From Pyropia yezoensis (taxonomy: Eukaryota; Rhodophyta; Bangiophyceae; Bangiales; Bangiaceae), in the NCBI GenBank assembly GCA_009829735.1, contig CM020619.1, forward strand, positions 12,887,777 through 12,951,776: a DNA stretch of 64,000 nucleotides, in the 5' to 3' direction. Below the pieces are notes generated by a model, which was given only the letters and a program-made list of their open reading frames with translations, ran no database searches and was not told where the DNA came from. Of the stretch, positions 6,158 to 59,737 are shown one piece after another (position 1 is the first letter of the stretch; each line of letters starts with the position of its first letter). Position numbers and translations under genes: made by a program.

Positions 6158-6834
6158 CAGGCCGGCGGGCCACGGACTTCTAATTGGCTGCCCGCAGGCC
6201 ACCGACTTTGACTTGGGCATCCCGGCAGTCCGCCTGCGTTGTGTTGGGCAGGTCGGCAGGTCACCGAGCTTGAATTCGGCGGCCCGGCAGGCCGCCTTGA
6301 AGAACGTGGCACAGGCCGGCAGGCCACCGACATTGCGTGGCACAGGGCATCAGGCCACCTAAAATACGTGGCATAGGCCGGCAGGCCACCGACAATGCGC
6401 GGCACAGGCCGGCAGGCCGCCTACAATACGTGCCATAGGCCGGCAGGTCACCGACAATGGATCTTCGCAGGCCGGCAGGCCACCGACAACGCTCTGAGGC
6501 CCGCCGGCAGGCCACCGACGTTGAATTGGGCGGCCCGGCAGGCCACCGACGATGAATTGGGCGGCCCGGCAGGCCACCGACGTTGAATTCGGCGGCCCGG
6601 CAGGCCACCGAGAAGGCGTTAGACAGCCCGGCGGGCCACCGACAACGCGTTGGAAAGGCCGGCAGGCCACCGACGTGGATTGGGGCCTGCCAGCAGGCCA
6701 CCTACGTTAATTTGCGCAGGCCGGCGGGCCTACTGCAACGCATTGGGCAGGCCGGGAGGCCACCCAGTTTGAAATAAGCAGCCCGGCGGGCCAACAAAAA
6801 TGCACTGGGGCCTGCCGGCAGGCCACGTACACGG
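6158..6834 (+). repeat. Minisatellite array 2, ~31-bp unit
   Basis: About twenty degenerate copies of the same unit as array 1 follow each other. Successive cores GGCAGGCCACCGAC start at 6318, 6380, 6411, 6442, 6474, 6506 and 6537, so the period is 31-32 bp. Spacers vary (ATGCGCGGCACA, TTGAATTGGGCGG and others). Orientation matches array 1. The open frames across it, on both strands, are by-products of a stop-free unit. Confidence 0.9.
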
Positions 6835-20474: not shown

Positions 20475-20881
20475 TGTGGAATATGTGTTACCCAATATAA
20501 AGGATATGGGACCGACCGGCGCCCGGAAGGCAAAGAGGAAGCTATTACCGTAGAGGCAAAGAAGACAGACCTTTAGCTCCTGGACGTTCGATGGGGAGCA
20601 AGCCGGCCGAAGGCAGCGGCGAGTCCCCACGTCGCAGATAAGGGCGAAAACAATATGCCGGTCGAGCGACCGAGCGGAGGCCGGACGGCCGATCGCTACG
20701 AGCATAGCAATCAATATAAAAGATCCCTCCAAGGCAAGGACAAATAAACAATACAAAACAAAAGTAGTCCCCCAAAGGGCGAGCCACAAGCGGACCCATG
20801 CCAACAAGGCTGGGGCCACCAGTCAGGGGGGCTACAAGCCAGTAAATACCGGAATTCGGTACAAGGGGCGGATATGCTACA
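20475..20881 (-). repeat. 3' LTR of element B
   Basis: 407 bp with TGTAGC...TTCCACA on the minus strand. Differences from the 5' copy include a T/A in the CTTTAGC/CTTAAGC segment, a T/C in GACGTTCG/GACGCTCG and an A/G in GGACAAATAAAC/GGACAGATAAAC. Hydrophobic-looking frames inside the LTR occur in both copies and are not counted as genes. Confidence 0.95.
20715..20722 (+). promoter_or_regulatory. Plus-strand TATA box in the B 3' LTR, candidate antisense promoter
   Basis: TATAAAAG on the plus strand, preceded by CAATCAA, lies inside the 3' LTR and points toward the antisense ORF at 21551. A second plus-strand TATAAAGG is at 20494-20501. The same sequences exist in the 5' LTR. That this drives the antisense gene is inference only. 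Confidence 0.35.
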
Positions 20882-20888
20882 TACCCCC
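20882..20888 (-). other. Polypurine tract of element B
   Basis: The minus strand reads GGGGGTA immediately before the 3' LTR. It is short, but placed exactly where the tract is expected. Confidence 0.5.
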
Positions 20889-21286
20889 GTTGCGAGCTTC
20901 GAGCCGTCCCGGCGAGGTCCGATCCGGTGCGGCCGGGCGGCCGGATGTGGCTACCTGCCAGCGTGCGGTGGAGGGGTCGCGTCCGCGTCGTCGTTCTGGA
21001 AGCACCGGGCCGTATGGCCGTCGGGCGCTGACTTGCATGCCTGGCCGGACGCCTCGTTGGCAGGGCACTATAAGTTTCTGGCACGTCGGTGCCGCGGAGC
21101 ACTTGGCCGTCGGTCGGCACGTCTTTTGACGGGTGCGCCGGCTCGACCGTCGTTCGTGGCCGGTGGCTGGCCAGTTGGCTCGTTACGCCCCGCCGAGGGG
21201 CACTACGCGGCTGCCGTTGGCTGGCGGCCGAGATCGGCCTGTGCGGCTAAGGGGCCAGTGCGGCCGTGCGGCAGGCGTGGCGGCAC

Positions 21287-21510
21287 GGCAAGGGCGGCCA
21301 CGCGGCGCGAGCGGTCAGGGGCGTCGGCCTGGCGGCAAGGGCGGCCACGCGGCGCGGTCGACCAAGGGCGTCGGCCGGGCGGCAAGGGCGGCCACGCGGC
21401 ACGAGCGACCAAGGGCGTCGGCGCGAGGGCGGCCAAGTGCGGCCGTCGAACGGCAAGGGCGGCCAAGCGGCGCGGTCGGCCAAGGGGCACGAGTGGTCAA
21501 GGGCGTCGCG
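21287..21510 (+). repeat. Tandem repeats upstream of the antisense ORF
   Basis: Four or more imperfect copies of a roughly 50-60-bp unit containing GGCAAGGGCGGCCACGCGGC and a CAAGGGCGTCGGC-like segment. They lie between the 3' LTR and the first good ATG of the antisense ORF. They are open in several frames, so the ORF can be extended upstream with Arg/Ala/Gly codons, but no ATG supports that. The tract could be leader or regulatory sequence. Confidence 0.6.
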
Positions 21511-21550
21511 TCTTGCCGGTTGGCGTCAGTTGCTTGTGGCTATTGCCAGT

Positions 21551-23437
21551 ATGGCAGACGAGGTTGCCCCGGTGGTGGGCGGTGGTGAGGCGGAGGCATC
21601 GCTTGATGAATGTGCGGGGGCCGCACGGCCGGTGGTGGGCTGGTATCGGAGCCCAAGGGCGATTTATATGTTTGACGGTGTCGGGTTCGTGGCGGACCCG
21701 CCGTTGATGGAGGCGGCGCGGACCAATCGGTCATTGGCTCTACAGCGTATCCGCGACGCGCGGTGGGCGTCGTTGCCCAACTTCCAGGACGCGTCAATCG
21801 ACGGGCGGTTCTACGAGGGCGAGTCCGTGTCGGACGTCCATGGTCATGCTGACTTTGGTCGTCAAGGGCCGGAACGGCAGGCGTACGAGGTGTTGTCGTT
21901 GTCCAACGAGTTGCTGCGGTACGGGGCGGCTGGTGGTCTTCACCCTTATCATCGGCGTCTGTACGCTTGGGCGCTTGCCTTTCGTGTCGGGCAAGTTGAG
22001 ACCTTTGTGGTCGCGGCCAACAACTTCGGCCGTCTTCGCCGGCTGTGGCCTTCGGCCGTGTTCTTGGCACGTGACTTGGCCGAGCGGCTTGATGTGCCTA
22101 TCGCGGAGGACCATGGGCTAGAGGAGTATCTGGCCATGTTGGCTGACAAGGTTGCCCATGGGGTGCGTCCGGCGGGCGTCGAATTTGGTCCTGCGACCTG
22201 TTCGCTTCCTAACCCGTTCCGGGATCCGACGACGTCGATTCGTCTTCGTAGGTCGTGGGACCTGGCGGCCTTTGAGCGTCGCGGCCTTTTGGCGCCGGCT
22301 TGGGCGTCCAGCCTGGGGCGCGCACGCCCGTTCTTCGACCTGAAGCGTTGGCTTCCATCACGCCCATCGTGGTGGGTTGAGTACGGACCGTACATGGAGA
22401 CGCCGGCGGCATTGTCGTACGTCGCCAGTGGGCTTAAGGACGCAGATAACGCGGCTTGGGGCGTCGTGTACGACGAGTTTTTCTGCTTTGCCTTGGCGGC
22501 TTGGGTGCATTGGCTCGTCCATGACGGACTTTTTTGCTGGTTGCCGGACCAAGTGACCGAGTGGTTCGACGGGTTGGACGTGTCGCGGCTGGCCGATGGG
22601 CCCGGGGGTGAGGAGCGTCTTGCGACGTACCACCGTATGCGTGATGCACACGCCGTCTTCCCGTGGACAACCATTGTCGCCGACGTCCGCCGACGTGATG
22701 AGCGCACCAAGGCGGCTCGCCAGGTGTACGTCAAGTTGGACGCGACGGCCAAGTATGGCTTCGTTCTTCGTCAGCCGTGCGGCGCGTTTGATTGGAAGTA
22801 TGACGCCTCGTGGGAGGGTGGTGACGAGTCGTCCGGACCGGGTCGTGGTCCTGGTCGTGGTCGTGAGACCGGTCGTCGGGTGCGGGACGCGTCTCGGTCG
22901 TTGTCGCCGGTGGCCGGTGCGGGGTCAAGTGACCGTGTTAACCCTGGTGTGGTTGCCCCTGTGTCCGGTGGGACCGGTGGCACGGAGCCGATCTGGCCGT
23001 CGGAGTGGGCCCGTGTGGGTGCTGTTGCCCTGTTGGGTACTGAACGGGTGGGTGCCTTGGCTGGGCAAGTGGTGCCTCGTGGCGCAACGGCTGGGGCGTT
23101 GGCCATTGCTTGGTCTCGTCAGACCGTGGAGATTGATGACGTTCTTCGTCGGGTCAGTGGGATGACTGAGTCGGAGGCCGTTGAGGCTTTGGTGTTGACG
23201 GTCTCCCGTTTGGCGGATCCGTCTCGCATTCGCGATAGCTTGCTCAGTGAGCTGCGTCGTGCGCCCTCGGTGGAGGCTCGGGCTGCGAGTCCTCGTCGTG
23301 TTGACGTTGGTGCCATTCTTGGCGTTCGTCGTCGACAGATGTCGGATGACGAGGAGGAGGATGCGCCTCGTGCGCCGGCTCGGCGTGTGCGCTCGCGCAG
23401 TTCGTCTTTTGACGAGGGCTCGCGACGTCGCCGTTGA
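21551..23437 (+). CDS. Antisense accessory ORF of element B, unknown function
   Basis: 628 codons from the first ATG after the repeat tract, opposite to gag-pol, ending 41 bp from the pol stop (tail to tail). The N-terminal two thirds look globular and Trp/Leu/Arg-rich (residues about 265-410 include RPSWWVEYGPYM, LFCWLPDQVTEWFDGL and HAVFPWTTIVADVRRR). A Gly/Ser/Arg linker follows. The C-terminus is acidic then Arg/Ser-rich (MSDDEEEDAPRAPARR ... RSRSSSFDEGSRRRR), like a nuclear or RNA-binding tail. No signal peptide, transmembrane span, zinc motif or env feature is seen. The decayed ORF at 59738-61680 in element E occupies the same position and seems homologous. I do not recognise the family; plant Tat/Ogre-type elements are known to carry unrelated antisense ORFs. 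Confidence 0.75.
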   Translation: MADEVAPVVGGGEAEASLDECAGAARPVVGWYRSPRAIYMFDGVGFVADPPLMEAARTNRSLALQRIRDARWASLPNFQDASIDGRFYEGESVSDVHGHADFGRQGPERQAYEVLSLSNELLRYGAAGGLHPYHRRLYAWALAFRVGQVETFVVAANNFGRLRRLWPSAVFLARDLAERLDVPIAEDHGLEEYLAMLADKVAHGVRPAGVEFGPATCSLPNPFRDPTTSIRLRRSWDLAAFERRGLLAPAWASSLGRARPFFDLKRWLPSRPSWWVEYGPYMETPAALSYVASGLKDADNAAWGVVYDEFFCFALAAWVHWLVHDGLFCWLPDQVTEWFDGLDVSRLADGPGGEERLATYHRMRDAHAVFPWTTIVADVRRRDERTKAARQVYVKLDATAKYGFVLRQPCGAFDWKYDASWEGGDESSGPGRGPGRGRETGRRVRDASRSLSPVAGAGSSDRVNPGVVAPVSGGTGGTEPIWPSEWARVGAVALLGTERVGALAGQVVPRGATAGALAIAWSRQTVEIDDVLRRVSGMTESEAVEALVLTVSRLADPSRIRDSLLSELRRAPSVEARAASPRRVDVGAILGVRRRQMSDDEEEDAPRAPARRVRSRSSSFDEGSRRRR

Positions 23438-23478
23438 GGGGGGGGTTGGGAGGTGAGGGTGTTGCCGTACGGCTTGTG

Positions 23479-26400
23479 TTAGTCTTGTTTGTACTTGTGT
23501 TGGCCCTTTGGCTTGTTGTTTGTTTTTTCGTGTTTGAACATGAAGGCAGCCCTGGCCCATTCTGTTGTCTTTTCGTCCGATGTTAGGACTGGCCGGCGTA
23601 TCTTCGACTCATGACAGAGCCGTTTGGCTTTTGAGAACCATGAAGCATGTTCCCAGCGTGGGGTGACCAGGAGGGTGTCCTTTGGACTGGATTGTAGCTC
23701 TGTGACCACTTGGTCAAGGGTGTGGGTGGGGGGTACCCTTAGGCAGATGCCTTGTGAGTTCTGCTCCGAGGCAGTGACATGCCTCTCCGGCTGGTAGCTC
23801 AACTGGCCATAGTGCTTGGTGAGTTCTGGGAGTTCCCAGAGTGGTCCCCATGTGGGGGAGGTGAAGTTCCGGCATGCCTCTGGCAGTGTTGACTTCATGT
23901 AGTACACAGGGATGTTTTCCTGGACCGAGCGGTCTGCGTTGTCCCATTGGACATTAGCCTGTACCACCTCCCATGGGTCGACGTAGACCGCGAGTATGTG
24001 TGGTTGCCAAATAGCGGCGGCTGCGCCAGTGAGCGCAACAAGTCCAGTTGCCAGAGCAACCTTGGTGGTTGGCCTTCGTGGCTTCCGCCACGTGTATCCA
24101 GGTATTTCTACCTTTTTGGATCGCAAATGTCGAATGACAAGGTTACGTGGCAAGTTTTCCACTGGTTCCCACGTGTCGTCCTTGGGGGTATAATCATACC
24201 ATTGGACTTTGAATTCGTACGAATCTCCAGACCGTCGGTGAGACATGAGTTTTTCGATGACGTATTCGTCGTGGACGGTTGGCTCCGGCCGTGGTTTGTC
24301 AAACCCATCGAGTAGTGGGTGTGGTGTGGACTCATTGGAGTTGTCTGGCCGGGGTGCCGCAGTGGCATGATCGCTGTTGATGCGTTTCTCGATACCATCG
24401 ACGTCAATGACGAAGGTAGAGTCGTCGGCGTCGACGACTATGAATGGCCCGACGGCCTTGCTCTGCAGCTTGTTAGCTCGTTGATGGTTTGTCGTATAGA
24501 CATAGTCGCCGATCTTGATCTTACGATTGCGCGTCCCAACGTGGGCATCGAAGTTACGTTTGTAACGTTGTTGAGTCTTGGCGAGGGCCTTGATGACGGC
24601 CGGGATCTGCAGCCGCAGTCGGGCCATGAACTCGCGCTTTCTCGCGAGCGGCGATCCGTCATTGAGGGTCCCTCTTTGGGATATGGACGTGCCTGGTGGC
24701 AAGTTACGAACCGACAGGTTAGGGACACGTCGTGGGATGACAAGCTCGAATGGCGCTAGTCCAGTGGACCGATGTGGTTGGCTGTTGTAAGCCAGAGTCA
24801 GGACGGGCAGAAGCTCGTCCCAGCGCTTGGGGTCCTCGGTCACGTAGTGACGCAGTTGTGTAGCAATCGTACGATTGTACCGTTCGACTTGACCGTTGGT
24901 CTGTGGGTGGTACGCGGTGGTGCGCACCGTCTCGACTCCGAGTACCTTCATCACGGCGATGAAAAAGTTTGACATGAACTGGGGTCCTTGGTCGGACAAG
25001 ATCTTGTCCGGTGGGCCATAGCAGGCTATCCAGTGTTCAATAACAGCGGATGAGACGGAGATGGCCGTGATGGTCTTGAGTGCGATGCACTTTGTAAGCT
25101 TTGCAAAGCGGTCCGTAATGACCAAGATGAATCGATTTCCGCTTTTGCTTGCTGGAAAGGGGCCGAGGATGTCGATCGACAGTTCCGTCAGTGGTTCTGA
25201 CGCCGGGAACAGGGTCAGAGGCGTCGTATGCTTACGCAACGCTAGCCGGTTCTGTGCACAAGTGGTGCAATTGGTGATGGTCTTGTGGATATCCGATATC
25301 ATGGATGGCCAGTAGAACTTTGTTCTCATAGTGAAGTACATCTTGTTCATGCCCGGGTGGGCGGCCGTGGTGGCCATGTGTTGGAGTTTCAAGATGACAT
25401 CTTGTTGCGACTTGGGGATGACCAGTTGGTCTCCATACACAGTTTTGCGACGCAGTGCATTGTTGTCGTCAAGGTAGAATGACTTGTGTCCTCCGTTGTT
25501 GACGCTGTCGATGATCGACTTGCAGAAATCATCCGATTGTTGCTTGTTAATGACTTCATAGAAGTCAAGAGGCTTGGGGTCGGTTGTGCCTGTGTACCTG
25601 TCCGTTTGGACGCCGTGTGCCGTCTGGGCCACCGCTAGACATGGTATGTCATCGTTGATCGTTTCGTTCATCGCGTTATTGTCCGCGCGGGACAGGAAGT
25701 CGGGCAGGTGGTGACTAGCGCCTGGCTTGTATTTCAGTTCGAAGTCGAACTCTGCGAGACGCATACGCCATCTCATCAACCGACCGCTAGAGTCGGCAGT
25801 GCTGTATATCCAGCTAAGGCTTTGATGGTCCGATCGGATTATGAAGTGTTGTCCTTCTAAGAAGTGCCTCAACTTGAGGACAGCCCACACAATGCCAAGG
25901 CATTCTCGCTGCGTTGTGGAGTAGTTGAGCTCCGCTGCGTTAAGAGCGCGGCTCCAGTAGCCGAGTGGCTGTGGTTTTCCATCGTCGTCCGTTTGGAGTA
26001 ACGTGCAGCCGAGTTGATACGCACTTGCGTCGACATCGAGCGTTAGCTCACGCCCAGCCTTAGGCAAGGCCAAGATTGGTGGGTGCACCAAGGCGTCACG
26101 GAGGTCCTCAAAGGACGCCAACTCCTCGGTCGAGGGTGGGGACAGGTCCGGTGGGACGTCTTTTATGGTCAACGCGTTTAGCGGTCGGGCTCTCTTGGTA
26201 AAGTCTACCACGAACCGTCGATAGACGTTGCACATGCCGAGAAAACTCTTGAGTTGGGTCTTGGTCTTGGGGAACGTTGCTTGACGCAGGGCGTCGGTGT
26301 TCTTGTTAAGAACGTGGAGTTTACCAGGCGTTATGCTGTGGCCGAGGTACTCCACCTCGTTGGAAAACCACTTGCACTTCTCAAGATTGAAAGTCACGCC

Positions 26401-27909
26401 GGCCTCCCGTAGTCGGGTAAGGACCTTGTCTACATTATGCATGTGTTGTTTGGGGGTTGCCGAGAAGATGATGACGTCGTCTAAGTAAACGAGGCAGACT
26501 TGCCACTTGAGTCCGGAGAGTATAATATCCAGGGCACGTTGAAACGTCGCCGGGGCATTGGTCAAGCCGAATGGCATCGTTGTCCAGTCGAAGATGCCAT
26601 AGTGCGTTGTGAAGGCCGTTTTTTCTTGGTCCTCCTGCCGCAATGGCACTTGCCAGTACCCAGCGGTACAGTCGAGAGAGGTGAATACTTCGGCGTCTCC
26701 GAGGGAGTCGAGACAGTCCTCCATACGCGGGAGGGGGTACGCATCCTTCTTAGTGATGCTGTTCAACCGTCGATAATCGACACAAAACCGGGCCTTCCCA
26801 TTTTTCTTCGGTACGATGACGACAGGACTGGCCCAGTCACTGTGACTTTGTTTAATAACCTTGAGCTTCAACATCTTGTTGATTTGATCGACGATGATCG
26901 CCCGTTTGAACGCACCGGTTCGATAGGGCTGCGCCCTTATAGGGGCAACCCCAGGTGGGGTGACGATGGCGTGCTCTGTAGCGTGTATGACCCCGAGGGT
27001 CCCGTCCCACATCTTGCCATGCTTGGCCAACATCGACTTAATTTGCGCGTGCAAATGTTGGGGAGCCCCGTCGAGGTTGATGTCGTCAAGTGACGGTTTG
27101 GGCTGTTCGGTCTCTGGGTCGGTTGACCCCGTATCCTCCGTCGGGGCGGCGAGGACTTGCCCGAGGTGGGGCTCGGCAAACGCGAGGACGCAGCCCTTTC
27201 GCAGGATGGCCGTGTCTGGCCCGAAGTTGCATACCTTAACCAGAAGTGGTTCGTCAGGTTTGATGGTGGCGAGTCCGCGGGCGACTGCCATGGTCTTGTG
27301 TCGGCACAATCGTGCGTTTGGTTGAAGAGTAACCAGTCCCAGCGTGTCACATCTGACCATAATCCATTCCTCGGTCTTGCCCTTGAGGCGCGTTTGTTTG
27401 CAAGCACGGACCTTGGTCGACCCCCCGGCCCATTGGGGCTCCATGACGTCGTCTTGACGGATGCTCAGGATTGGGGAGTGGCCGATCGAATGGTTTTCAG
27501 CACCTTGCCAAACGATACGTTTGCGGGCGGGCAGGATTGCCTCGATGTGCTTATCGATGAACTCGGTCCCGAGTATGCACTTGACCGACAGGTTGGGCGT
27601 AACGTAAAAACGTTCAAAGGCTTGAACCCCTCCGGTGTCGATGAACAAGTGGATGGCTTGGAGAGCCTTGATTGTTTGCCCGTTGGCATCAACAATGTGT
27701 GGTGCACTGGTTAACGTGTCGGCGTAGTCGCGCCAATGTGGCGGTAGAACATCCGGCCGGATGAGGTTGACGCCAGCTCCGGTATCGAGGATGGGTCTCA
27801 TACTCCGCGTGTTCGCGAGCTCCGTGCCTATACAGGCGGCGATTTCATAATGTCGATGAGCTTCGCTCAGTATCTTGGTGACCTTAGGTCTATCTTGTCG
27901 GGCAGGCAA
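23479..27909 (-). CDS. pol: Element B pol polyprotein with C-terminal extension
   Basis: 1476 codons uninterrupted. Numbered from 27909: protease DTG at 42-44; RT about 330-510 with YLDD at 475-478; RNase H Asp627, Glu669, Asp694; integrase HHCC His844, His851, Cys881, Cys884; core Asp913, Asp973, Glu1009 with exactly 35 residues between the last two; chromodomain about 1214-1265. After it come some 205 more residues: a basic hinge, a hydrophobic segment about 1283-1300 (VALATGLVALTGAAAAIW), then a soluble Trp/Pro-containing tail of unknown role. The frame has no ATG at its head and continues upstream in the -1 phase of gag, so translation is expected by frameshift at 27951-27957. No inactivating change is visible. 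Confidence 0.95.
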   Translation of the reverse strand: MPARQDRPKVTKILSEAHRHYEIAACIGTELANTRSMRPILDTGAGVNLIRPDVLPPHWRDYADTLTSAPHIVDANGQTIKALQAIHLFIDTGGVQAFERFYVTPNLSVKCILGTEFIDKHIEAILPARKRIVWQGAENHSIGHSPILSIRQDDVMEPQWAGGSTKVRACKQTRLKGKTEEWIMVRCDTLGLVTLQPNARLCRHKTMAVARGLATIKPDEPLLVKVCNFGPDTAILRKGCVLAFAEPHLGQVLAAPTEDTGSTDPETEQPKPSLDDINLDGAPQHLHAQIKSMLAKHGKMWDGTLGVIHATEHAIVTPPGVAPIRAQPYRTGAFKRAIIVDQINKMLKLKVIKQSHSDWASPVVIVPKKNGKARFCVDYRRLNSITKKDAYPLPRMEDCLDSLGDAEVFTSLDCTAGYWQVPLRQEDQEKTAFTTHYGIFDWTTMPFGLTNAPATFQRALDIILSGLKWQVCLVYLDDVIIFSATPKQHMHNVDKVLTRLREAGVTFNLEKCKWFSNEVEYLGHSITPGKLHVLNKNTDALRQATFPKTKTQLKSFLGMCNVYRRFVVDFTKRARPLNALTIKDVPPDLSPPSTEELASFEDLRDALVHPPILALPKAGRELTLDVDASAYQLGCTLLQTDDDGKPQPLGYWSRALNAAELNYSTTQRECLGIVWAVLKLRHFLEGQHFIIRSDHQSLSWIYSTADSSGRLMRWRMRLAEFDFELKYKPGASHHLPDFLSRADNNAMNETINDDIPCLAVAQTAHGVQTDRYTGTTDPKPLDFYEVINKQQSDDFCKSIIDSVNNGGHKSFYLDDNNALRRKTVYGDQLVIPKSQQDVILKLQHMATTAAHPGMNKMYFTMRTKFYWPSMISDIHKTITNCTTCAQNRLALRKHTTPLTLFPASEPLTELSIDILGPFPASKSGNRFILVITDRFAKLTKCIALKTITAISVSSAVIEHWIACYGPPDKILSDQGPQFMSNFFIAVMKVLGVETVRTTAYHPQTNGQVERYNRTIATQLRHYVTEDPKRWDELLPVLTLAYNSQPHRSTGLAPFELVIPRRVPNLSVRNLPPGTSISQRGTLNDGSPLARKREFMARLRLQIPAVIKALAKTQQRYKRNFDAHVGTRNRKIKIGDYVYTTNHQRANKLQSKAVGPFIVVDADDSTFVIDVDGIEKRINSDHATAAPRPDNSNESTPHPLLDGFDKPRPEPTVHDEYVIEKLMSHRRSGDSYEFKVQWYDYTPKDDTWEPVENLPRNLVIRHLRSKKVEIPGYTWRKPRRPTTKVALATGLVALTGAAAAIWQPHILAVYVDPWEVVQANVQWDNADRSVQENIPVYYMKSTLPEACRNFTSPTWGPLWELPELTKHYGQLSYQPERHVTASEQNSQGICLRVPPTHTLDQVVTELQSSPKDTLLVTPRWEHASWFSKAKRLCHESKIRRPVLTSDEKTTEWARAAFMFKHEKTNNKPKGQHKYKQD

Positions 27910-27944
27910 GGGTGCGTCGGGGAGACTGCCCGGTGGTCCTCGAC

Positions 27945-29690
27945 TTACTCGTTTTTCGAGTCGGCCTTGCCGTCGCCGGCGTCGTTGCTTTGGACGTCGT
28001 CGTCGTCCGAGTCCGGCAGGACTTCGTTCTCGACGATCGCATTGATCTGCTTGCGGACCGAGTCGTCAATGAGTGCCATCACTCGTGCCTGACGTCGTTC
28101 ACGACGGGGCTTAGGGCATCGAGAGGCAAAGTGTCCGCGCTCGTTACAGTTGTAACAGATGTCGTTCGCTCGCGGGTTGGGCGTGTCCGTGCGGACAGCC
28201 CTAATGGGGTCGAATGGTCGATCGACCGTGCGCGCTGGGGGCTCAGGGGTAGAGTCGATTTGACTAACCTTGATCATGGCTGGCCGGCTGGCCTTGATGG
28301 ACTGCCGCAGGCGCGTGGCGCCTTCCCAAAACCCTTGGGCAGCTGCCACTGTGTCCGCCATTGGGCGATCAGGGAACTGACTGTCCAGAACACGGACGTT
28401 TGGTTTGATGAGGTCTGAAAGACCGTTGATGAAGACATCCTTCACGTCTTGGGCGGAGAACAGGCCACAGAGGCGATCGCACGCCGCCTCCACGCGGGAG
28501 GCAAACACGCGCGGGACCTCTGTGTCCGCTTGATTTATCGTAATGATGTCGTTGTAGGCCGTTGCCAAACCGGCATGAGTTGCGTACTTCTTGAGAAGCC
28601 AGTTGACTCCTTCACCATAGGTGGTGAGCTCGTAGTGCTTGCCACTGACAACCGTGTTGGCCGCGCTGGCGAATGCGCGCTTGGCGGCTCCCGCCAGCCG
28701 GAAGGCGATCAAGGGGAACGCCCGGCCGTGGGTCAGCCCTGCCGCGTCGCAAGCTCTGCGAAAGGTGGTGAGGAAGGTGAAAACACCGAGGGGGTCGCCA
28801 CCGTTAAAGGTCTCTTGACCCTGGAACGCCCCGTCTAGGCGCTTGTTCATCTTGCTAGCATCTTTCACCATCGATGGTGTATACTTGGTGCTCCGTCGGA
28901 GAAGGAAGTAGGTCCTGTAGTCCAAGAGTGACTTAAAGCGACTGTTGCCGGGTCGAATGACCAACTTGCGGTCACCCAACTCCGTGAGTTCAGCTGCCGG
29001 GGCCGGTCGGCGCCGGAAACGACGCGCACGTCGACGGTGCGCGTCCGAACTTTCCGTAACGGAATCACTGCTCGATGAGGTCGGGCTTGACGGTGGGGAA
29101 GGGTCCCAACGACCGTCATAGGTTTCGTCCGAAGACGAGGAAGACGAGGACGACGAGTTGTCGGATGACATCCCATCATCAGCGGATGATGCGCCTCCCT
29201 CCCGGGCGTTCGGACGCTTAGTCGAGACCCTGACCTTTAGGTCTTCGACTTGGCGCTCCAACGCGCGGATCCGACGGTTCTTCATCTGAAGATTGCCAAT
29301 AGGCAGGCTGGCGTGGGACGCCCCTTGAGCAGGTCCCCGGGTCATCTTGCCCACCGGCTGTCGGTTCGACGTCGTCCGTTGACGAAACGCCTCATTTGAG
29401 GGTGGCTTTCTCAGCTCCTCAAGAGTGGTCACCAGTTTGGTGTTAGACTTCTCCAACTCCTTGTTGGCGGCCTCTTGGGCCTCAAGACGGTCACGAAGTG
29501 CCTCCACCACCGCCTTCAAGCTCTCCAGCTTGGAGTTAGGAATATCCTCCGCGTCGGGGTTGGGGGGGGTAACCTCGGGTGCCGGACGGCAGCATGTTCC
29601 GCTCCCTCCGCCTGGTGGCGTGTAACCCGAAGGCAGGGCAATCCCCTTACCCTTCGAGCGCCGAGCGCCATCAGGGGCTCCCGAAGCCAT
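27945..29690 (-). CDS. gag: Element B gag
   Basis: 581 codons from the ATG at 29690; the frame is open a further 30 codons upstream but without ATG. It has a Pro/Gly-rich start, a coiled coil (SKLESLKAVVEALRDRLEAQ and following), a Ser/Asp-rich low-complexity linker, a capsid region (DPLGVFTFLTTFRRACDAAG) and a CCHC knuckle CYNCNERGHFASRC near 28150. The acidic C-terminus ends SKNE-stop. It forms particles and packages RNA. The last sense codons coincide with the slippery site that gives access to pol. Confidence 0.93.
   Translation of the reverse strand: MASGAPDGARRSKGKGIALPSGYTPPGGGSGTCCRPAPEVTPPNPDAEDIPNSKLESLKAVVEALRDRLEAQEAANKELEKSNTKLVTTLEELRKPPSNEAFRQRTTSNRQPVGKMTRGPAQGASHASLPIGNLQMKNRRIRALERQVEDLKVRVSTKRPNAREGGASSADDGMSSDNSSSSSSSSSDETYDGRWDPSPPSSPTSSSSDSVTESSDAHRRRARRFRRRPAPAAELTELGDRKLVIRPGNSRFKSLLDYRTYFLLRRSTKYTPSMVKDASKMNKRLDGAFQGQETFNGGDPLGVFTFLTTFRRACDAAGLTHGRAFPLIAFRLAGAAKRAFASAANTVVSGKHYELTTYGEGVNWLLKKYATHAGLATAYNDIITINQADTEVPRVFASRVEAACDRLCGLFSAQDVKDVFINGLSDLIKPNVRVLDSQFPDRPMADTVAAAQGFWEGATRLRQSIKASRPAMIKVSQIDSTPEPPARTVDRPFDPIRAVRTDTPNPRANDICYNCNERGHFASRCPKPRRERRQARVMALIDDSVRKQINAIVENEVLPDSDDDDVQSNDAGDGKADSKNE
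27951..27957 (-). promoter_or_regulatory. -1 ribosomal frameshift heptamer, element B
   Basis: In gag phase the minus strand reads TCG AAA AAC GAG TAA. G-AAA-AAC is a near-canonical slippery heptamer (first base deviates, as in some known viral sites such as GUUAAAC). A -1 slip reads CGA GTA AGT and enters pol. Element C has the same layout with GAG TAA directly after its heptamer. Confidence 0.6.
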
Positions 29691-29890
29691 ATCGCAACCC
29701 GGCGTACTTGCGTCGGCGCGCCCTGCGTCGCCAACCAAAAGGTCCTCGTGGCACGACGCCCGGCGTCGTCCAGCCTTCACTGATCGGTGATGTCGCCCTG
29801 CAACACCCGATCAAGAGATCGTCAACACAACTGCCACAAGGCACCAAGGAACACGTACGAGTGTACGGCAGCGCCGCACACGAGCAGTAT

Positions 29891-29907
29891 CCCCTGCTGC
29901 TCCACCA
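29891..29907 (-). other. Primer-binding site of element B
   Basis: The minus strand reads TGGTGGAGCAGCAGGGG one base after the 5' LTR. An identical 17-mer sits at the same place in element C. It implies a tRNA with 3' end CCCCUGCUGCUCCACCA; I cannot name the isoacceptor. Confidence 0.65.
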
Positions 29908-29908
29908 A

Positions 29909-30315
29909 TGTGGAATATGTGTTACCCAATATAAAGGATATGGGACCGACCGGCGCCCGGAAGGCAAAGAGGAAGCTATTACCGTAGAGGCAAAGAAGAC
30001 AGACCTTAAGCTCCTGGACGCTCGATGGGGAGCAAGCCGGCCGAAGGCAGCGGCGAGTCCCCACGTCGCAGATAAGGGCGAAAACAATATGCCGGTCGAG
30101 CGACCGAGCGGAGGCCGGACGGCCGATCGCTACGAGCATAGCAATCAATATAAAAGATCCCTCCAAGGCAAGGACAGATAAACAATACAAAACAAAAGTA
30201 GTCCCCCAAAGGGCGAGCCACAAGCGGACCCATGCCAACAAGGCTGGGGCCACCAGTCAGGGGGGCTACAAGCCAGTAAATACCGGAATTCGGTACAAGG
30301 GGCGGATATGCTACA
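29909..30315 (-). repeat. 5' LTR of element B
   Basis: 407 bp, nearly identical to 20475-20881, followed on the plus strand by the AGGGG target duplication. It would hold the sense promoter, although the clearest TATA-like motifs in this LTR point the other way. Confidence 0.95.
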
Positions 30316-38352: not shown

Positions 38353-41300
38353 TCAACGGACAACTTTGCTGCTGTGCAGCACATGGGCACTGGACAGCAA
38401 CTCACCCAAGCACTTGCCGAACGTGGCCTCGAACTGCTCACGACACACCACAATCATGTGCTTAGCTGCAGCATCGCCGTCCAAGAACACCGTGGGCTTG
38501 TTTGTACGCCGAAAGTTGCAAATAGTGATGTGCACGGCGTTGTGCTCCCACTTGCTCCACTGGTTACCGAACGCCTTGGACATCAGCCGCTCAGACTGCA
38601 GCACCTTGCTCTCAATGGGCACCGTAACATCCACGTTGCTGGTGGACTTGCAAGATAAGCACAGCGCAAGCAACCCGTCGGTCAAACAGGACGAAGAGGA
38701 CTCAGGCCGGGGATCTTGGACGACGCGTACAAACCTGACCATGTCAAATGATGCGTGCGAATCCGACGTCATAAAGACATGGGAGAGAAGTGTCTCTCTA
38801 GGCAGCTCCAGCACCTGCGCCATATCCGAGTGGGAGTCAATGAGCTCCATCTCCACGTCATCGGCTTGCAACGGCGTTGTCGAATCGACTAGGACCTCCG
38901 ACAGCAGGGCATGTGGCTGCGGACCCGTCTCCAGGTTGGCAATGCCCTTGTACAGGTCGCGTAACGCAATGCGCGAGTAGTCCACAACACCAGAAACGCC
39001 AGGCGCCCCCACCAAATAGAGAGTGGCCGCGTGGCGCAACCGGCTCAGAAGGACCTCAGACCAGTACGTGGTCACCTCCCAGGCCCGGCCCGGATCAGAA
39101 ATGCGAGCTGCAGAGACAAGCCTCGCAAATGCTGCCACAATGTTGGCCACATCAGGTTGAACCTCCATGTCCTCCTTCTCCATGCGCGCGACAATCGTGT
39201 CCCACGGCGTAGACACCGCAAGGAGGAATGCGGCGATGTGCGCGGGGTTTTTGTACTTGTTGTACATGCTCGAGCTGCTGCAAAGAAGGTTGCTGTAGAA
39301 CGCGTCGTCCCAGAAGACACAGTAGTCGTCAGCAGGCCTAGCGCCGTTGGCCGGCATCAGAGGAGAACTCCCTTCAACGGTGCAGCTGATGAAGCCTGCT
39401 ACCAGTAGCGCGGGAAAGCACAAAGTCTGCAGCAGAAGGTTTGTGACCGACGACGTCATGCCGGTGTCCACGCAAGCACTGGAAATCACATCCCAAAGAG
39501 GCGTACCCGGTTCACAAAATGCGACCGCCTGGCGCAGGGACGCCAAGGTGCGCAGATGACCGCCACAGATACGAGCCATCGCGCTCGTTACCTCTTCAGA
39601 ATCCGCCATGTGCGCCCCGGCGACCGACCGCGCTAAGTAGATCGAGCGAGCTTGGACGACCGGAAGAAGGATGTCGTAGAGCTGATCGAATGATGGCGGC
39701 GAAAGAGTGCCAACAGTCACCAGGCTCCATGGAGAACCGTCCCCCATACCCCCAGGGGTAGACATACGGGCTCGTGGCGGCATCCCACCAGGAGATATGA
39801 GAGCGGTCACCTGCTGAGGGGAAACTTCAGCCAGAATGAACAAAAATGACAAAGAAAAAAACAGCGCGGTTACAGGACCAGCATTGGAAAACGTGCAGAT
39901 GATGTGACGATACAGCTCGCACAGGCGTCGGTCATGGGGAAACACAGTAGCCATGGTCAATTCGTCAACGAGAATGGCAATGCGGCCCCCTCGCAACTGA
40001 AGCAACGCTTCCTCAATCACTGAGTCGACACTCAACCAACCATTGCGGATTCGCATCCACGCATGCAGAGCAAAGACTGGGTACGGCACTGTCGCTTGAT
40101 ACAACAAGCACCATAGGACTCGGAGGTAGAGCGGCAGCTTGTGTGCGTCGTCGATATGCTTCTCCGGCTTCTGCTGGTCCTCTTTGATGTAGGCATTCAT
40201 GTACCAGGTGCTGCGTTTCACCATTGCTTCGTCCTCAGCGCTCCATGACGATAGTCCGTTGAAGTTAACACAGCAGATGCGTGTCTCCTTTGCCCGCTCC
40301 GCGATGACGTTCCAGACGACGTCCGAAATGCCTGCGGCACGTGCCGCACGTACATACTGCTGCCTGTCTAGCTTGTCCCCTGCGTGCCACACATCTGCAG
40401 CGAGATGCGTCTTTCCGCATCCAGAACTCGCCATCACGACGCCAATGGCTCGCGTGAAGTTCCTGATTGACTTGGACGTCGCTTCGGAAGCAATAGGAGC
40501 AGCCGCAGCCGCGTCACCGTCTGAATGTACACCTTCCAGTGTCCCGAAGGCCCCACCGATAGAAGGCGCACTTACATCCGTCGCCACCTCTCCACCCGCA
40601 TCATCGTTCGTTGGTAGGGTTTGGTTCTTCAATGAAAGCAGTCCTTGATCGCATTCGCGGACCAAGTAGAGCCAGCTGCTGACGATCAGGTGCGCCCGAT
40701 CGATGACGTCGGCCGAATCAGAAGTGGCGGGGTCGTAGTCAGGCTTTGGCGCCAGGACCGAAGACGGCTGCCGTGGAAGGGCTAGCTCATTCAACGTCCC
40801 GTCTTGGCGCATTAGCGTTTCCATCGGCTTCAACAGCTGCTGTTGGTAGATGCGAGCTCTAAGCTCAGCAATGCGAGCTACGATCTCGTCGCGACCACCC
40901 TCCAGGTCGTTACGCACCCGCTCTAGGTCCACAGCCCGCTCTTCGAGACGTCTTTCCTTGCGCTCCAGCCGGGCTGTTGCCTTGGCCGACAAACTCCCAT
41001 CATCCAGCCGCGCGTCGACCTCCTCTTGCTCCTTTCGCGTCGCCTCCTTCAGCGCCATATTGGCCTGCATCACGGTGCGCACTTGTTCCAGATTTTTCTC
41101 CTCAACCTTGAGGACGGCCTGCATCTCCTGCAACTTGTCTGGATCGATGTTGAGAACGGCCATGTTGTCAAGCATAGCAGCGCCGTCACCCATGAACTTG
41201 CCATCGTTGACGCCACGACCACTGGAAGGCGGGACACTACAGGTTGGCAGATAGGTGTGACGAGGGGTGCCGCCATGGAAGCGTACCAGACCGACAGGAC

Positions 41301-41436
41301 GAAACTCGGGAAGCACAACTCGAGCGCGTCGCACCAGGCTCGTTTGGGGCCCGGTAATCGACTGACCATGGACAACCATGGCTCGGGGGAAAGACGGGAG
41401 GAAGCAATGGCCCGGTGAAACCAAGAAACACTCCAT
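38353..41436 (-). CDS. Large P-loop NTPase resembling Crinkler/RHS-type proteins
   Basis: 1027 codons uninterrupted from an ATG at 41436. Residues about 1-90 have no clear domain. About 100-205 is a long charged coiled coil (VEEKNLEQVRTVMQANMALK, ERKERRLEERAVDLERVR). A Walker A-like ASSGCGKT lies at 336-343 (first Gly replaced by Ala). A Walker B RIAILVDE lies at 485-492 with the catalytic Glu. A hydrophobic patch FFSLSFLFILAEV is near 526-538. The last 200 residues contain DGLLALCLSCKST, which might be a restriction-nuclease-like lysine region, but this is weak. Order (N-terminal module, NTPase, C-terminal effector-like domain) fits the Crinkler-RHS superfamily. No introns are needed. Neighbours are unrelated repeats. 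Confidence 0.7.
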   Translation of the reverse strand: MECFLVSPGHCFLPSFPRAMVVHGQSITGPQTSLVRRARVVLPEFRPVGLVRFHGGTPRHTYLPTCSVPPSSGRGVNDGKFMGDGAAMLDNMAVLNIDPDKLQEMQAVLKVEEKNLEQVRTVMQANMALKEATRKEQEEVDARLDDGSLSAKATARLERKERRLEERAVDLERVRNDLEGGRDEIVARIAELRARIYQQQLLKPMETLMRQDGTLNELALPRQPSSVLAPKPDYDPATSDSADVIDRAHLIVSSWLYLVRECDQGLLSLKNQTLPTNDDAGGEVATDVSAPSIGGAFGTLEGVHSDGDAAAAAPIASEATSKSIRNFTRAIGVVMASSGCGKTHLAADVWHAGDKLDRQQYVRAARAAGISDVVWNVIAERAKETRICCVNFNGLSSWSAEDEAMVKRSTWYMNAYIKEDQQKPEKHIDDAHKLPLYLRVLWCLLYQATVPYPVFALHAWMRIRNGWLSVDSVIEEALLQLRGGRIAILVDELTMATVFPHDRRLCELYRHIICTFSNAGPVTALFFSLSFLFILAEVSPQQVTALISPGGMPPRARMSTPGGMGDGSPWSLVTVGTLSPPSFDQLYDILLPVVQARSIYLARSVAGAHMADSEEVTSAMARICGGHLRTLASLRQAVAFCEPGTPLWDVISSACVDTGMTSSVTNLLLQTLCFPALLVAGFISCTVEGSSPLMPANGARPADDYCVFWDDAFYSNLLCSSSSMYNKYKNPAHIAAFLLAVSTPWDTIVARMEKEDMEVQPDVANIVAAFARLVSAARISDPGRAWEVTTYWSEVLLSRLRHAATLYLVGAPGVSGVVDYSRIALRDLYKGIANLETGPQPHALLSEVLVDSTTPLQADDVEMELIDSHSDMAQVLELPRETLLSHVFMTSDSHASFDMVRFVRVVQDPRPESSSSCLTDGLLALCLSCKSTSNVDVTVPIESKVLQSERLMSKAFGNQWSKWEHNAVHITICNFRRTNKPTVFLDGDAAAKHMIVVCREQFEATFGKCLGELLSSAHVLHSSKVVR

Positions 41437-44456: not shown

Positions 44457-44913
44457 TAGGGCCGAGCGTCCCGCCGGCCAACAAGGAAACCGAGGAAAGG
44501 GACTGGGGAACGTCTGACAGGGTTACAACAGGGCCACAACGTACGGGATGTGGGGCCAGTGTCTGTCAACAGGGGCCCCCCAACAAGTGTCTCGTGCCAG
44601 GGGAACCCGTTCAGACTGGCCAGGGGCGGGTACAGGAGAGGTGTGGGCCAAGCGTAGGGGAAACCGAAGGGGGTGTGGCGCAGCCCGCGCCGGCCGCCCA
44701 CCTGCATTCCTCCTCCCCGTTGCCCTCCCCATGTGGCGCCGCACGCCAGGGGGGGGTGACGCGGTGTAGGGGCACAGGCGGGGGCCAGCGGAACGTGGGC
44801 GCAGCCCTGGTACCATTTGGAACTCAGGGGGCCAGTAGATCAGAGCACCCTCACGGGTTCCCTCGTCCCCAGCACCCGGGTCCCATTGTACCATCGTCCC
44901 CGCGGCACTTCCC

Positions 44914-45750
44914 GTGGCCACCTCGTTCTCCCCCGTTTCCTCGTTCCCCTTCTCCGTCTCAGTGCCCACGTACCCCACCACACGTACCACCACGTTCCCC
45001 TCCACCCGGGCCCTCATGGATACCGGCAGCGCCGCGGCGGGTTCGCCTGCTGGCGCGGGCCCTGGGGCCCCCAACCTTCAAGGTGACCGAGCGGTTCAAG
45101 GTGGCCCCGCTTCTGGGCCAGACGTACCGGGTGGGCAAGGCGTACGTGCTACTCAAGGTGGCCCCGCTACTGGGCCAGGCGTACTACCTGGGAACCAAGA
45201 GGAAACCGGGGCGGGCCAGCTGTACGCGGTCGTCACGCTCCCGAAGGGAATCCAGGTCGTGTGGGGCCCCGCAACCATATGGGCTCCGAGGAGACCGACG
45301 GGAACAAGACGGACGACGGACGTGGTACCGATGGGCTCCTGCGACCAAGTGCTGGTACCGACGTGCAACCGTCCAGGCAACCCGTACGAGGCGACAACAT
45401 GTCCAAGCACCAACGGGTTCACGGGAGGTAGGGGACCGTCAAGGAAGCGTTCAACAAGCCGGGTAGCGACAGAACGTGGAACCAAGAAGTCAACCGGTAC
45501 AACAGGACAAGGTACGCGGGACCCAAGGAAACAATGGAGACCAGGACCAAGTACGCCTCCGCGTGGGACGAGGCACCCGCCGCGAGGCAAGGCACCAAGA
45601 GCACCAACGTGGAAGGGTCAAGGACAGTCAAGAGGGTCCCGTCAAGGTTCACACGGACCCACGTCAAGGACACAGAGGGTTGCCAGCGTGCCCCGCACCA
45701 CGGAGGAGGGTGTCCAAGGTCGCAGGGGGTCGTGGGGGGGAGAGACATGA
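44914..45750 (+). CDS. Antisense-strand ORF in element C, low complexity
   Basis: 278 codons, opposite to gag-pol, in the same slot as the antisense ORFs of B and E. Composition is Thr/Pro/Gly-rich at first, with an approximate tandem duplication (GVRATQGGPATGPGV against AVQGGPASGPDV), then strongly basic (FTGGRGPSRKRSTSRVATE and onward). I see no alignment with the B or E antisense proteins, except that all end in basic or Arg/Ser-rich tails. It may be a decayed or quickly evolving counterpart, or chance openness. Reading frames on the minus strand are also partly open here. Confidence 0.3.
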   Translation: MATSFSPVSSFPFSVSVPTYPTTRTTTFPSTRALMDTGSAAAGSPAGAGPGAPNLQGDRAVQGGPASGPDVPGGQGVRATQGGPATGPGVLPGNQEETGAGQLYAVVTLPKGIQVVWGPATIWAPRRPTGTRRTTDVVPMGSCDQVLVPTCNRPGNPYEATTCPSTNGFTGGRGPSRKRSTSRVATERGTKKSTGTTGQGTRDPRKQWRPGPSTPPRGTRHPPRGKAPRAPTWKGQGQSRGSRQGSHGPTSRTQRVASVPRTTEEGVQGRRGSWGGET

Positions 45751-46069: not shown

Positions 46070-47773
46070 TTAGCAACGGGGCCACATATCTGCACCCGGT
46101 TCAAGGTTCCAGGGCCACACAGCATAGATAGCCTTGAACGGTTCCAGTAGTACGATGGCCTCCTCCTCCCGCAGTGGAGGTTCGGTCCCAACGCGTTCAC
46201 AGTACTGGATAACCTTGGCCCTGTCGAACTTGTGGTAAGGTTCCCAGGTATCCTCGGACTGGGCATAACCCCACCAGCGTACCAAGAGCCACAGATTCCC
46301 TTCCTGGTCCCTGTCGTGCCCCAAGAAACGTTCCCAAACAAAAGGAGTGCCAGAGTCCTCGTGGTCCAGGGGTACATCCTATTCTTGCGGACCATGCAAC
46401 ATGGACGCGGAGTCCGTCTGGCCAGAGGGTGTGGGTGCACGGGCCACATGGTCACTACTGACCCGGTCACGGATCCCTTCAACCAGTACCGTGAACGTGT
46501 GCCCATCCCCGGTCCACGATTCGATAGGGACCCTTGACCCTCTGGTCCAGTTTCTTCCGACTGTCGTCGTTGGTATCCACGTACACCCAGTCTCCCACGC
46601 GAAGGGTCTCGTTCACAGGCGTAACCCGCTTATCGTAACCCCTCTTGTACCGACGCTGGGCCAGGTCAAGGTTCTTGCGTACCGTGAAGGCTAGGTTTCT
46701 CAGGTGGGCCCGTCTCATCTCGCGTACCTGGCGTGCGTTGCCACTGAACTCCTTGGGATACGGGAACCCTGGGAGCCGGTCCAGTGCAAAGGTACGCACG
46801 CGTTCAAGGATAACGAACTCAAACGGGGCCACGCCGGTACTCTGTTGTGGCCTTGTGTTGTACGCCACGGTAAGCACGGACCAACTCGTCCCACTGGTCC
46901 TGATGGTCCTCAATGTACGTACGTAACTGGGCCACGATAGTACGGTTAAAGCGTTCCACTTGTCCCTGGAACTGCGGATGGTACGTGGTAGACGTTACGT
47001 GTTTGATCCCAAGCATACTGCAGACGCCACGGAAGTGCGTGGACGCCAGCAGGGGCCCGTTGTCAGTCAGTAACGTTTCCGGGGGCTCGTAAGAAGCGAC
47101 CCACGTATCCAAAAAGGCCGAGGCCACCACTTCCGCGTCCTGACTGCTAATGGGTACCACTCTGGTCAGCTTAGTTAACCTGTCCACGATAACCAAAAGG
47201 TACTTGTTCCCGTTCACTGTCTCAGGCAAGGGTCCCAACAGGTCAAGGCATACGTCCTTAAAGGGATCCGTCGCGGGGAACAGCTTCAACGGATTGGTAC
47301 GCCGCCTTCCTTGAACCTTGCCCTTGGAACAAGCGGTACAGTTGGTAACAAAAGCGTGCACATCGGCCACCATAGTTTCCCAGTAGAACGTTCGTCTCAT
47401 AGAGGTATACATCTTATTGATCCCCGGGTGTCCCGCGTGGCCTGGTTCATGCTCCAAAGTCAGTACCTCCTGCTGTAGTTCCTTGGGGACCACAATCTGA
47501 ACGGCTCGGTCCAGAGGAGCCAGTCGTACAAGTAACCCTTCAGGTGTTTCCCCGTACCGCGAGTTAGCGTTCCGGTTCATCTCTTCCTGAAGTTCCTTGC
47601 AACGCTTATCGTTCCCCTGAGCCTTAAGGATCCTGTCAATCGAAAGCGGTGGGTACCTCTTGTGTGTTTTGAAGTTCGGACGGACCCATCCGGTAACAAA
47701 GTTGGCCATGGCTAACAGGGAAGGTATCTCCTCAGGTATAGGTCCTCGGTCGTGTCCCGTAGTTTCTAGCCTT
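46070..47773 (-). pseudogene. pol: Element C pol, 3' part: integrase and chromodomain, frameshifted
   Basis: The integrase (47773-46819) shows HEPGHAGHPGINKMY, the Cys pair CTACSKG, first Asp (CLDLLGPLP), second Asp (TDNGPLLAS) and the Glu region (FQGQVERFN). Near 46870 reading moves to another frame (46913-46479: TVAYNTRPQQSTGVAPFEFV and a GDWVYVD barrel). Near 46480 it shifts again before the chromodomain (46324-46070: NLWLLVRWWGYAQSEDTWEP). So two frame breaks lie in an otherwise well conserved integrase. Upstream it is interrupted by an E-family solo LTR. Confidence 0.85.
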
Positions 47774-48242
47774 TGTGGCAGTGTTGACCCCCAGGTAGGG
47801 GGGCAACACGTGCCATGCAAGGGGCGGCAGGCCACTAGCCTGATCCGTTCCTCCCCCTGCATTTGGGTTCATATTCCCTAAGTTTGGGATAGTTAGCTTA
47901 GTAGTAAATCCAACTTGGATTTGAGGGTTTTCTGCATTTATCGTCTTGAATTTTCGTGTGGCCCGGTGGGCAGGTGCTGGGGTGGGAGATTCTGAGTGGC
48001 GAGATTCTGAGTGGACCCTGGGGGGATCAGGGGAGGGACAGCGGGGCTTGGCCCTGCGTCCCCGTCCCGACCAAGAAACTGTTGGACCACACACCATCCT
48101 CTTGTTTGTCCGTGGGGGGTTTGCCCCACAACAGAGACAGAGTGTGTGCGACTTGCACTTCTTCCGGTTCCCCCGACACGGGAGGCAGCCCTTGCACACC
48201 GCCCCAACATGGGTGCCGTGTGTGCATGTGGTTTTTGCCACA
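47774..48242 (+). repeat. Solo LTR of the E family inserted in element C pol
   Basis: 469 bp, TGTGGCA...TGCCACA, flanked by GCCTT (47769-47773 and 48243-48247). It lies between the RNase H end and the integrase of C, in opposite orientation to C. It is highly similar to the LTR of element E at 58931-59399. A frame on the minus strand encodes a Cys-rich segment (CKGCLPCRGNRKKC) that is also conserved in the E copy. Confidence 0.92.
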
Positions 48243-58562: not shown

Positions 58563-58930
58563 GTGGCGGGGAGGGCGGCGAGGGTGGGGTGGGTGGGGGC
58601 GGGCAGACAAGGCCGGCAGAGCGACGACTCAGCGTTCAACACCAAAAGATGCAATCACCCTACCCGGCTCCAGGCGGGGCCGGCACCGTGGCGGGCGCAT
58701 CTTTCGTGGCCGGCGCGGGTGCAGCGGGCCCTATTCGGGGTTGCGCTCCCGCGCCCCGACACATGGCCGTCCAGGACGGTTGCACGTCGTGTGGCGGGAG
58801 CGGGGCTGCACAGCTACGTGCAAGAACGCCTCGGTCCACCGGCGCTGACGCGCCAGCAGCCGGGTGTACGCACCACGGTCCTCCGCCGCGCCGCTGCCGT
58901 GTTCCGACTATCGGGCCGGGCGGCGGTCAC
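58563..58930 (+). CDS. Host ORF fragment cut by element E
   Basis: A plus frame with ordinary residue use (VQRALFGVALPRPDTWPSR; LHSYVQERLGPPALTRQQPG; TTVLRRAAAVFRLSGRAAVT) runs straight to the LTR boundary at 58931. Beyond it the frame continues only through LTR sequence. It may be an exon of a host gene disrupted by E. No family is recognised and the start is not fixed. Confidence 0.3.
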
Positions 58931-59414: not shown

Positions 59415-59737
59415 TTCCGACCGACCCGGTCGGCCCTGTGAGGGGGTGCGTAAACGCACGTCTCGGCGTTGGGGGCGCGACTTGCTGTCCCCCCTTGAGC
59501 ACGTAACGCGGATGTGGAGGCGGTCACGTTGACCGCCCCTCTCCTCAAGCTTGCCCACTCGGCAGCTTGCTCTCCTCAGTTCACGCTTCACCATCACCAC
59601 CACCTCCCCTTCACCTTCCACGGGGCCGCCCCACGCTGGGGAGGCCACCCGTCTACCCACGATCCGAGTCCCCCTCAACTCGAGGCGGGTCTCGTGCCGC
59701 TGTAGCCAAGGCGTCTCTCCCCAACTTTGGGAGAGTC

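Follow-up and report, generated by a model that had tools for sequence, protein, structure and literature searches.

A 628-codon open reading frame on the strand opposite to gag and pol of a red-algal chromovirus is a genuine protein gene under purifying selection, and at least three pol lineages carry such a gene in tail-to-tail orientation to pol. It lies in element B of the window, a stretch of 64,000 nucleotides from Pyropia yezoensis; elements E and D have counterparts. For LTR retrotransposons, additional genes on the antisense strand have been documented best in flowering plants. The arrangement is known from there, and what appears to be new is the protein family, its presence in chromoviruses, in red algae and in at least three lineages, and its exchange as part of a cassette.

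Element B consists of the following parts:

20475 to 30315, minus (gag-pol strand): element B, a Ty3/gypsy chromovirus (LTR pair and domains)
20475 to 20881, minus: 3' LTR, upstream of the antisense gene (LTR pairing)
21286 to 21444, no strand: short GC-rich tandem repeats in the spacer that separates the antisense ORF from the LTR (3.3 copies of a 47-bp period by Tandem Repeats Finder)
21551 to 23437, plus: antisense accessory gene, 628 codons from ATG (stop-free frame, genome copies, dN/dS)
22343 to 22801, plus: conserved core common to B, E and D, B residues 265-417 (BLASTP, hhalign)
23479 to 28065, minus: pol, with RT, RNase H, integrase, chromodomain and a tail of about 220 residues
24145 to 24264, minus: chromodomain of pol, residues 1268-1307 (PF00385, 36.5 bits against a cut-off of 25.1)
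27945 to 29810, minus: gag, with a CCHC zinc knuckle (PF00098)
29909 to 30315, minus: 5' LTR (LTR pairing)

The two LTRs are 407 bp each with 3 mismatches between them, and AGGGG is present at both outer flanks. Gag, RT, RNase H and integrase follow one another in Ty3/gypsy order between the LTRs, with a short target duplication; order and duplication were established for B, and E and D were seen in part. The protease match in pol was below the cut-off. The first-pass annotation had described B as an apparently intact chromovirus with a 628-codon ORF opposite to gag-pol in the interval between pol and LTR. Both descriptions are fair: gag and pol are open, the chromodomain is present, and a stop-free frame beginning with ATG occupies 21551-23437 on the plus strand, between pol and an LTR. 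Gag and pol, read from stop to stop, overlap by 121 nt (27945-28065, minus) in different frames, so that pol of B probably needs a frameshift. The pol tail (23479-24100, minus) is without a Pfam match and is most hydrophobic near pol residue 1336.

The start of the gene was compared with eight subfamily frames that reach it (three of B86 and five of B72). In seven of them the stop-to-stop frame starts within 14 residues of the B ATG (the frame of L041 is longer), and six have an ATG at that position (absent in L037 and L038). The stop-free frame in the B interval measures 728 codons. First-order simulations of this interval gave longest frames with a median of 279 and a maximum of 702 codons, and none of the 3000 trials reached the observed length. 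By its length the frame exceeds chance, though by no great margin; conservation is the stronger proof. When one copy each of B0, B86, B72, E and D98 was inspected, only the frame of the antisense gene itself was stop-free.

The window holds remains of the two other elements:

44839 to 45747, plus: what remains of the antisense gene of D (its N-terminal part; the core was not found)
46822 to 50727, minus: pol of D, split in two, with an LTR of E type (47774-48243) at the break
58930 to 59399, minus: LTR of E adjoining its antisense gene
59738 to 61680, plus: antisense gene of E, a decayed copy with 3 stops and one frame break relative to an open copy
62023 to 64000, minus: pol of E, running off the window (integrase recognised by Pfam, the RNase H part by its resemblance to B and D)

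An ORF of similar length and orientation had been annotated in E at 59738-61680. There is no ORF at this place. The span runs from ATG to stop of the E gene, contains 12 stops if read straight from 59738, and breaks up into four open pieces (59507-59878, 59773-60132, 60157-60342 and 60346-61677). The gene itself stood up: elsewhere in the genome it is open from its ATG over 647 codons, a frame that is open in 18 of the 20 E loci fetched, the window copy (L009) being counted among the 20. Nineteen of these loci (L010-L028) were fetched as the best protein matches, so their intactness and their dN/dS are flattering. Likewise, the best 95 of 3030 candidate E matches in the genome are all stop-free over the 444 residues queried. 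Copies chosen otherwise than by protein match are in poorer condition: L072 and L073, chosen by pol, have one stop each, and L064, chosen by chance, has one inserted base. L066, also chosen by pol, has an open frame in the 384 codons that were available.

In the window copy of D, the core of the antisense gene seems to have been lost. The remnant at 44839-45747 (plus) consists of two overlapping Pro/Arg-rich frames, which recur in relatives. The E-type LTR inside D pol is inverted relative to the LTR at 58930-59399 and 97% identical to it. Complete D genes were reached through longer open frames in relatives of the window D. One (D98, at L070) has 591 codons from ATG and 651 from stop to stop; the other (D66, at L067/L071) has 663 from stop to stop. 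In both, the end of a D-type pol lies tail-to-tail downstream of the gene, and this pol ends in a chromodomain-like stretch. The stretch of D scores 25.0 bits for PF00385 (E=1.8e-5), just under the cut-off of 25.1; that of E scores 19.6 bits (E=0.00088). The antisense ORF occupies the interval between pol and 3' LTR in B and E, and the D gene is tail-to-tail with pol.

The proteins of B and E align with 23% identity by BLASTP over B residues 265-417 and E residues 204-364 (E=6e-9). The alignment had been proposed by eye, and it proved right. Pairwise BLASTP gave E values of 6e-8 for B-E, 9e-7 for B-D98, 1e-5 for B-D66, 7e-9 for E-D98 and 1e-11 for E-D66. With 1000 window-shuffled sequences per pair as controls, the real scores exceeded the best shuffle by far (43.9 against 28.5 bits for B-E, 40.0 against 28.9 for B-D98 and 47.0 against 29.6 for E-D98), and reversal controls were also far below the real scores. 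The next best match to B among the stop-to-stop frames of at least 60 aa in the window has an E value of 3.0. Profile-profile comparison with hhalign matched the B family to E with a probability of 78.6 (E=1.7e-5, B residues 265-420), and a B profile to D plus E with a probability of 88 (E=3.1e-6, B residues 180-418). Had no hit appeared over residues about 265-410, the homology proposed in the first-pass annotation would have counted as refuted; the hits cover this stretch. Judged by these alignments, the B, E and D proteins are one family, with significant similarity over an overlapping core. The integrase stretches of the three elements are 38-43% identical. The antisense gene would therefore be old within these elements, if it was inherited together with pol.

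The gene is present in many copies in the 107.5-Mb genome from which the window was taken. The B protein has at least 71 matches there (70 of 1134 candidates scored). Among the matches listed, 35 cover at least 598 of the 628 residues (19 at 98-99% identity, 8 at 84-86% and 8 at 71-74%), and 24 of these 35 have no stop. D-type matches number at least 105 (104 of 1912 candidates scored), and those listed fall into groups at roughly 91-98, 62-67, 46-56 and about 40% identity. Outside this genome, a protein search with B returned 5 hits and a profile search 10; two are from Pyropia vietnamensis (46-48% identity) and the remaining hits are at 41-73%. The corresponding search with E returned one protein at 97%. 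One Pyropia vietnamensis homologue (P0002) is predicted to have 984 aa, with a C-terminal extension that is absent from the other homologues.

The first-pass annotation had expected selection on this gene, to be refuted by a dN/dS near 1 among B copies. By the Nei-Gojobori method, dN/dS passes this check between B subfamilies, and it is also low between D groups and in E. The values are 0.135 and 0.148 for B vs B86, 0.20 for B vs B72, 0.246 for B vs B59 (345 codons) and 0.249 for D98 vs D66. The differences between B and B86 by codon position are 52/42/185. Recent B copies alone would point the opposite way: three recent pairs gave 0.46, 0.52 and 1.74, values within B86 are 0.45-0.54 and within B72 0.56-0.97, and all pairs of eight recent copies add up to 224 nonsynonymous vs 115 synonymous differences. 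Low values between subfamilies and higher ones among close copies mean that selection acts while the elements are active and relaxes after insertion, when the copies drift.

In E, there are two groups separated by a dS of about 0.10-0.13 with almost no protein change. Among the protein-picked loci, L010 compared with six others gave 0.011-0.048, and the highest pair is 0.159; variable sites in 18 copies are distributed 19/20/100 over the codon positions. The copies not picked by protein are also low (0.153 for L066 over 384 codons, 0.042 for L072, 0.049 for L073 and 0.101 for L064), as is the window copy (0.116). For B vs B72, the integrase stretch has a dN/dS of 0.083, compared with 0.20 for the antisense protein. 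The constraint on the antisense protein in this pair is thus real but weaker than that on the integrase stretch.

Part of element B has a history of its own:

20882 to 24100 (ends approximate), no strand: cassette of spacer, antisense gene and pol tail past the chromodomain (three-way site counts)

The pol bodies of B0 and B72 are 90% alike, and the figures for gag and LTR are 92% and 93%; for the antisense gene the figure falls to 73%, and for the pol tail to 66%. When B0 is compared with B86, the corresponding figures are 82% (pol body), 84% (gag) and 91% (LTR), with 85-86% for the antisense gene and the pol tail. Three-way site counts, given as B0+B72/B0+B86/B72+B86, are 367/130/145 for the pol body, 184/59/45 for gag and 26/18/6 for the LTR, the last being weak. 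For the antisense gene they are 103/318/95 and for the pol tail 26/143/35. The spacer between LTR and ORF (72/93/74) favours neither history. The switch point near 24100 falls just past the chromodomain (24145-24264). A second B72 copy switches near 24100 again, with counts of 10/42/9 in 23978-24127 and 14/11/6 in 24128-24277. The break was placed from a B72 copy that is nearly complete but has a pol deletion, from a single B86 copy and, for the second B72, from a piece of 661 bases. The site patterns of these three subfamilies show the antisense gene and the pol tail to have moved together between B-group lineages, and recombination or template switching would be the simplest account of the exchange.

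The gene is also kept in E elements with a deletion in pol. A single such element was read from end to end, a copy that goes under both L062 and L011. It is 5.0 kb long (651-5669 of L062) and has identical 469-nt LTRs and an open antisense gene; its pol is an in-frame fusion in which only the chromodomain-like stretch is recognisable. The integrase match starts at the same place (residue 306-308) in 7 of the 20 fetched E loci, the L062 copy included, so that these have a pol deletion in common; the antisense frame is open in 6 of the 7. Retention of the gene fits with usefulness to its own element, but it may be chance, since any deletion has to lie in some part of the element and the antisense protein was the criterion by which the loci had been chosen.

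What the protein does was approached from its features. No Pfam family exceeded the cut-off for the B, E or D members, no relative was found in the PDB, and no reliable fold was obtained; with mean pLDDT values of 40.5 and 61 the structure models are weak ones, so that the description of the core as mainly helical is tentative. A strongly hydrophobic 19-residue stretch is absent from B, E and D (highest value 1.44). The Arg/Ser-rich tails noted earlier in B and E are real: the last 80 residues have a pI of 11.6 in B and 11.5 in E. In D98 the corresponding pI is 5.8, and this tail is not basic. In the 3' LTR of B, TATAAA-like sites occur on the plus strand at LTR positions 22 and 241, and none is found there in the gag-pol direction; the antisense-directed TATAAAAG is present in the B LTR. 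TATA-like sites occur in the B LTRs and in one of two B72 LTRs, and none in the E LTRs. The spacer of the B72 copy L060 has an 18/54-bp array at the place corresponding to the tandem repeats of B; a scan of one D locus and of the sequence upstream of the E gene found no comparable array.

We propose, as a tentative reading to which we give somewhat less than even chances, that the gene encodes a regulatory protein of the nucleus that serves the element carrying it. It would be transcribed from a promoter in the 3' LTR or in the spacer between LTR and ORF. The product is probably soluble, with a tryptophan-rich, perhaps mainly helical core, a low-complexity hinge and, in B and E, the basic Arg/Ser-rich tail. 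Such features suggest a nuclear, nucleic-acid-associated regulator, which would raise or protect transcription of the element that carries it or aid its nuclear steps, and would not be structural or enzymatic in replication. We count in favour of this reading the homology, the selection, the evolution faster than that of integrase (B-B72), the basic tails, the lack of a strongly hydrophobic stretch, the pol-deleted E elements and the nuclear aORF protein of Grande. Against it we count the D98 tail, the failure to find a Pfam family, a PDB relative or a reliable fold, the E LTRs without TATA-like sites, the finding of arrays only in B among the places scanned and the poorer condition of E copies chosen otherwise than by protein.

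The protein might instead work in the particle or the pre-integration complex, as a nucleocapsid-like protein, a chaperone or a nuclear-import factor for the RNA being copied. The basic tails of B and E would suit the packaging of nucleic acid, and because the cassette includes the pol tail beside the chromodomain, the two proteins could work together. The antisense placement, however, demands a transcript separate from the genomic RNA, and gag of B already has a CCHC knuckle; we regard such a role as unlikely. About equally doubtful is an anti-silencing factor that would free its own element from methylation or heterochromatin, as VANC does for VANDAL transposons. The fast but constrained evolution would agree with this, as would the exchange as a cassette together with a divergent non-coding spacer, which bears tandem repeats in B; VANC, according to a passage in PMC5735166, binds motifs arrayed in tandem repeats. 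Comparable repeats, however, were found in B only. A related possibility, which we likewise rate as low, is a self-protecting cassette. A fast-evolving, element-specific nuclear factor would travel with its own target DNA, would be swapped like a retroviral env, and would be kept even by pol-deleted elements because its action is confined to the element in which it resides. If true, this would make the antisense gene the equivalent, in a retrotransposon, of anti-silencing by VANC.

It is far less probable that the antisense RNA, and not the protein, is what matters, controlling gag-pol RNA by pairing or through small RNAs. For other retroelements, PMC7264820 discusses such RNAs as regulators, but the third-position excess and the low dN/dS in B, D and E speak for selection on the protein and largely refute RNA as the sole function. 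A shadow ORF (a chance open frame in GC-rich DNA opposite a sense coding region) would draw on the simulated maximum, which at 702 codons in 3000 trials is not far under 728, but it is refuted: pol ends at 23479, outside the antisense ORF, each minus frame of the ORF has 6-9 stops, and the gene has homologues in three lineages and a low dN/dS.

The function of the proposed regulator can be tested by means of the cassette exchange, which provides elements alike in pol and unlike in the antisense gene, and by means of the pol-deleted derivatives that keep the gene.

Among known systems, the antisense aORF of plant Retand elements is similar in place and orientation, in the long interval between pol and 3' LTR, in its many copies and, as in B here, in the tandem repeats of this interval (parts of PMC11963269 and PMC7264820). 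In recently active Retand elements, the relevant text of PMC11963269 gives 97% of clusters as encoding TRP28 and about half as having tandem repeats there. The antisense aORF protein of Grande is described as nuclear in a passage of PMC7264820. Retand is not a chromovirus, whereas pol of the red-algal carriers ends in a chromodomain or a chromodomain-like stretch. The red-algal members have no PF04195 or PF10536 match, and the red-algal gene is common to lineages with integrase stretches only 38-43% identical. PF04195 (Transposase_28), the model for Retand TRP28, was absent up to E=10 in 11 B-type and 2 E members and up to E=1 in D. A search of the genome for it gave 0 matches; the control matched in E. 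coli alone, under the cut-off. PF10536 (PMD) was absent among the hits of the B, E and D members and also gave 0 matches in the genome, with 0 in the control genomes as well. As far as tested by these searches and the Pfam cut-offs, the protein is not a known one of the Tat/Ogre lineage, in line with the first-pass annotation, which did not recognise it as one of these. A very distant relation to PF04195 below the reach of HMMER is possible. Our best guess is that the red-algal protein is an analogue of the plant antisense aORFs, kinship with them being undetected. Independent gain of the arrangement, if that is what happened, would suggest that these elements face a general problem to which an antisense accessory protein is a solution.

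The antisense ORF of Boty (Botrytis, Sclerotinia) is a near system named in this context, and it is set beside the red-algal gene by description. HTLV HBZ and HIV-1 asp are also protein genes on the opposite strand, and the antisense promoter of HTLV lies in the 3' LTR (both from passages in PMC7264820); these belong to a different virus group and are likened by arrangement. VANC of VANDAL shares with the red-algal gene an element-encoded accessory protein with variable regions and tandem repeats in non-coding DNA (as described in PMC5735166). VANDAL elements are DNA transposons, and VANC is a candidate functional analogue only. In the open-licence literature, we recognised no description of antisense ORFs in red-algal or Bangiales retrotransposons or of antisense or accessory genes in chromoviruses. 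A passage in PMC3350952 reports no retrotransposon chromodomain in Porphyra yezoensis ESTs, genome data being lacking at that time.

Elsewhere in the window, two arrays with a common 31-bp period lie about 4 kb apart (2147-2383 and 6190-6801). A 1027-codon ORF at 38353-41436 (minus) has no Pfam match at E<=0.01.
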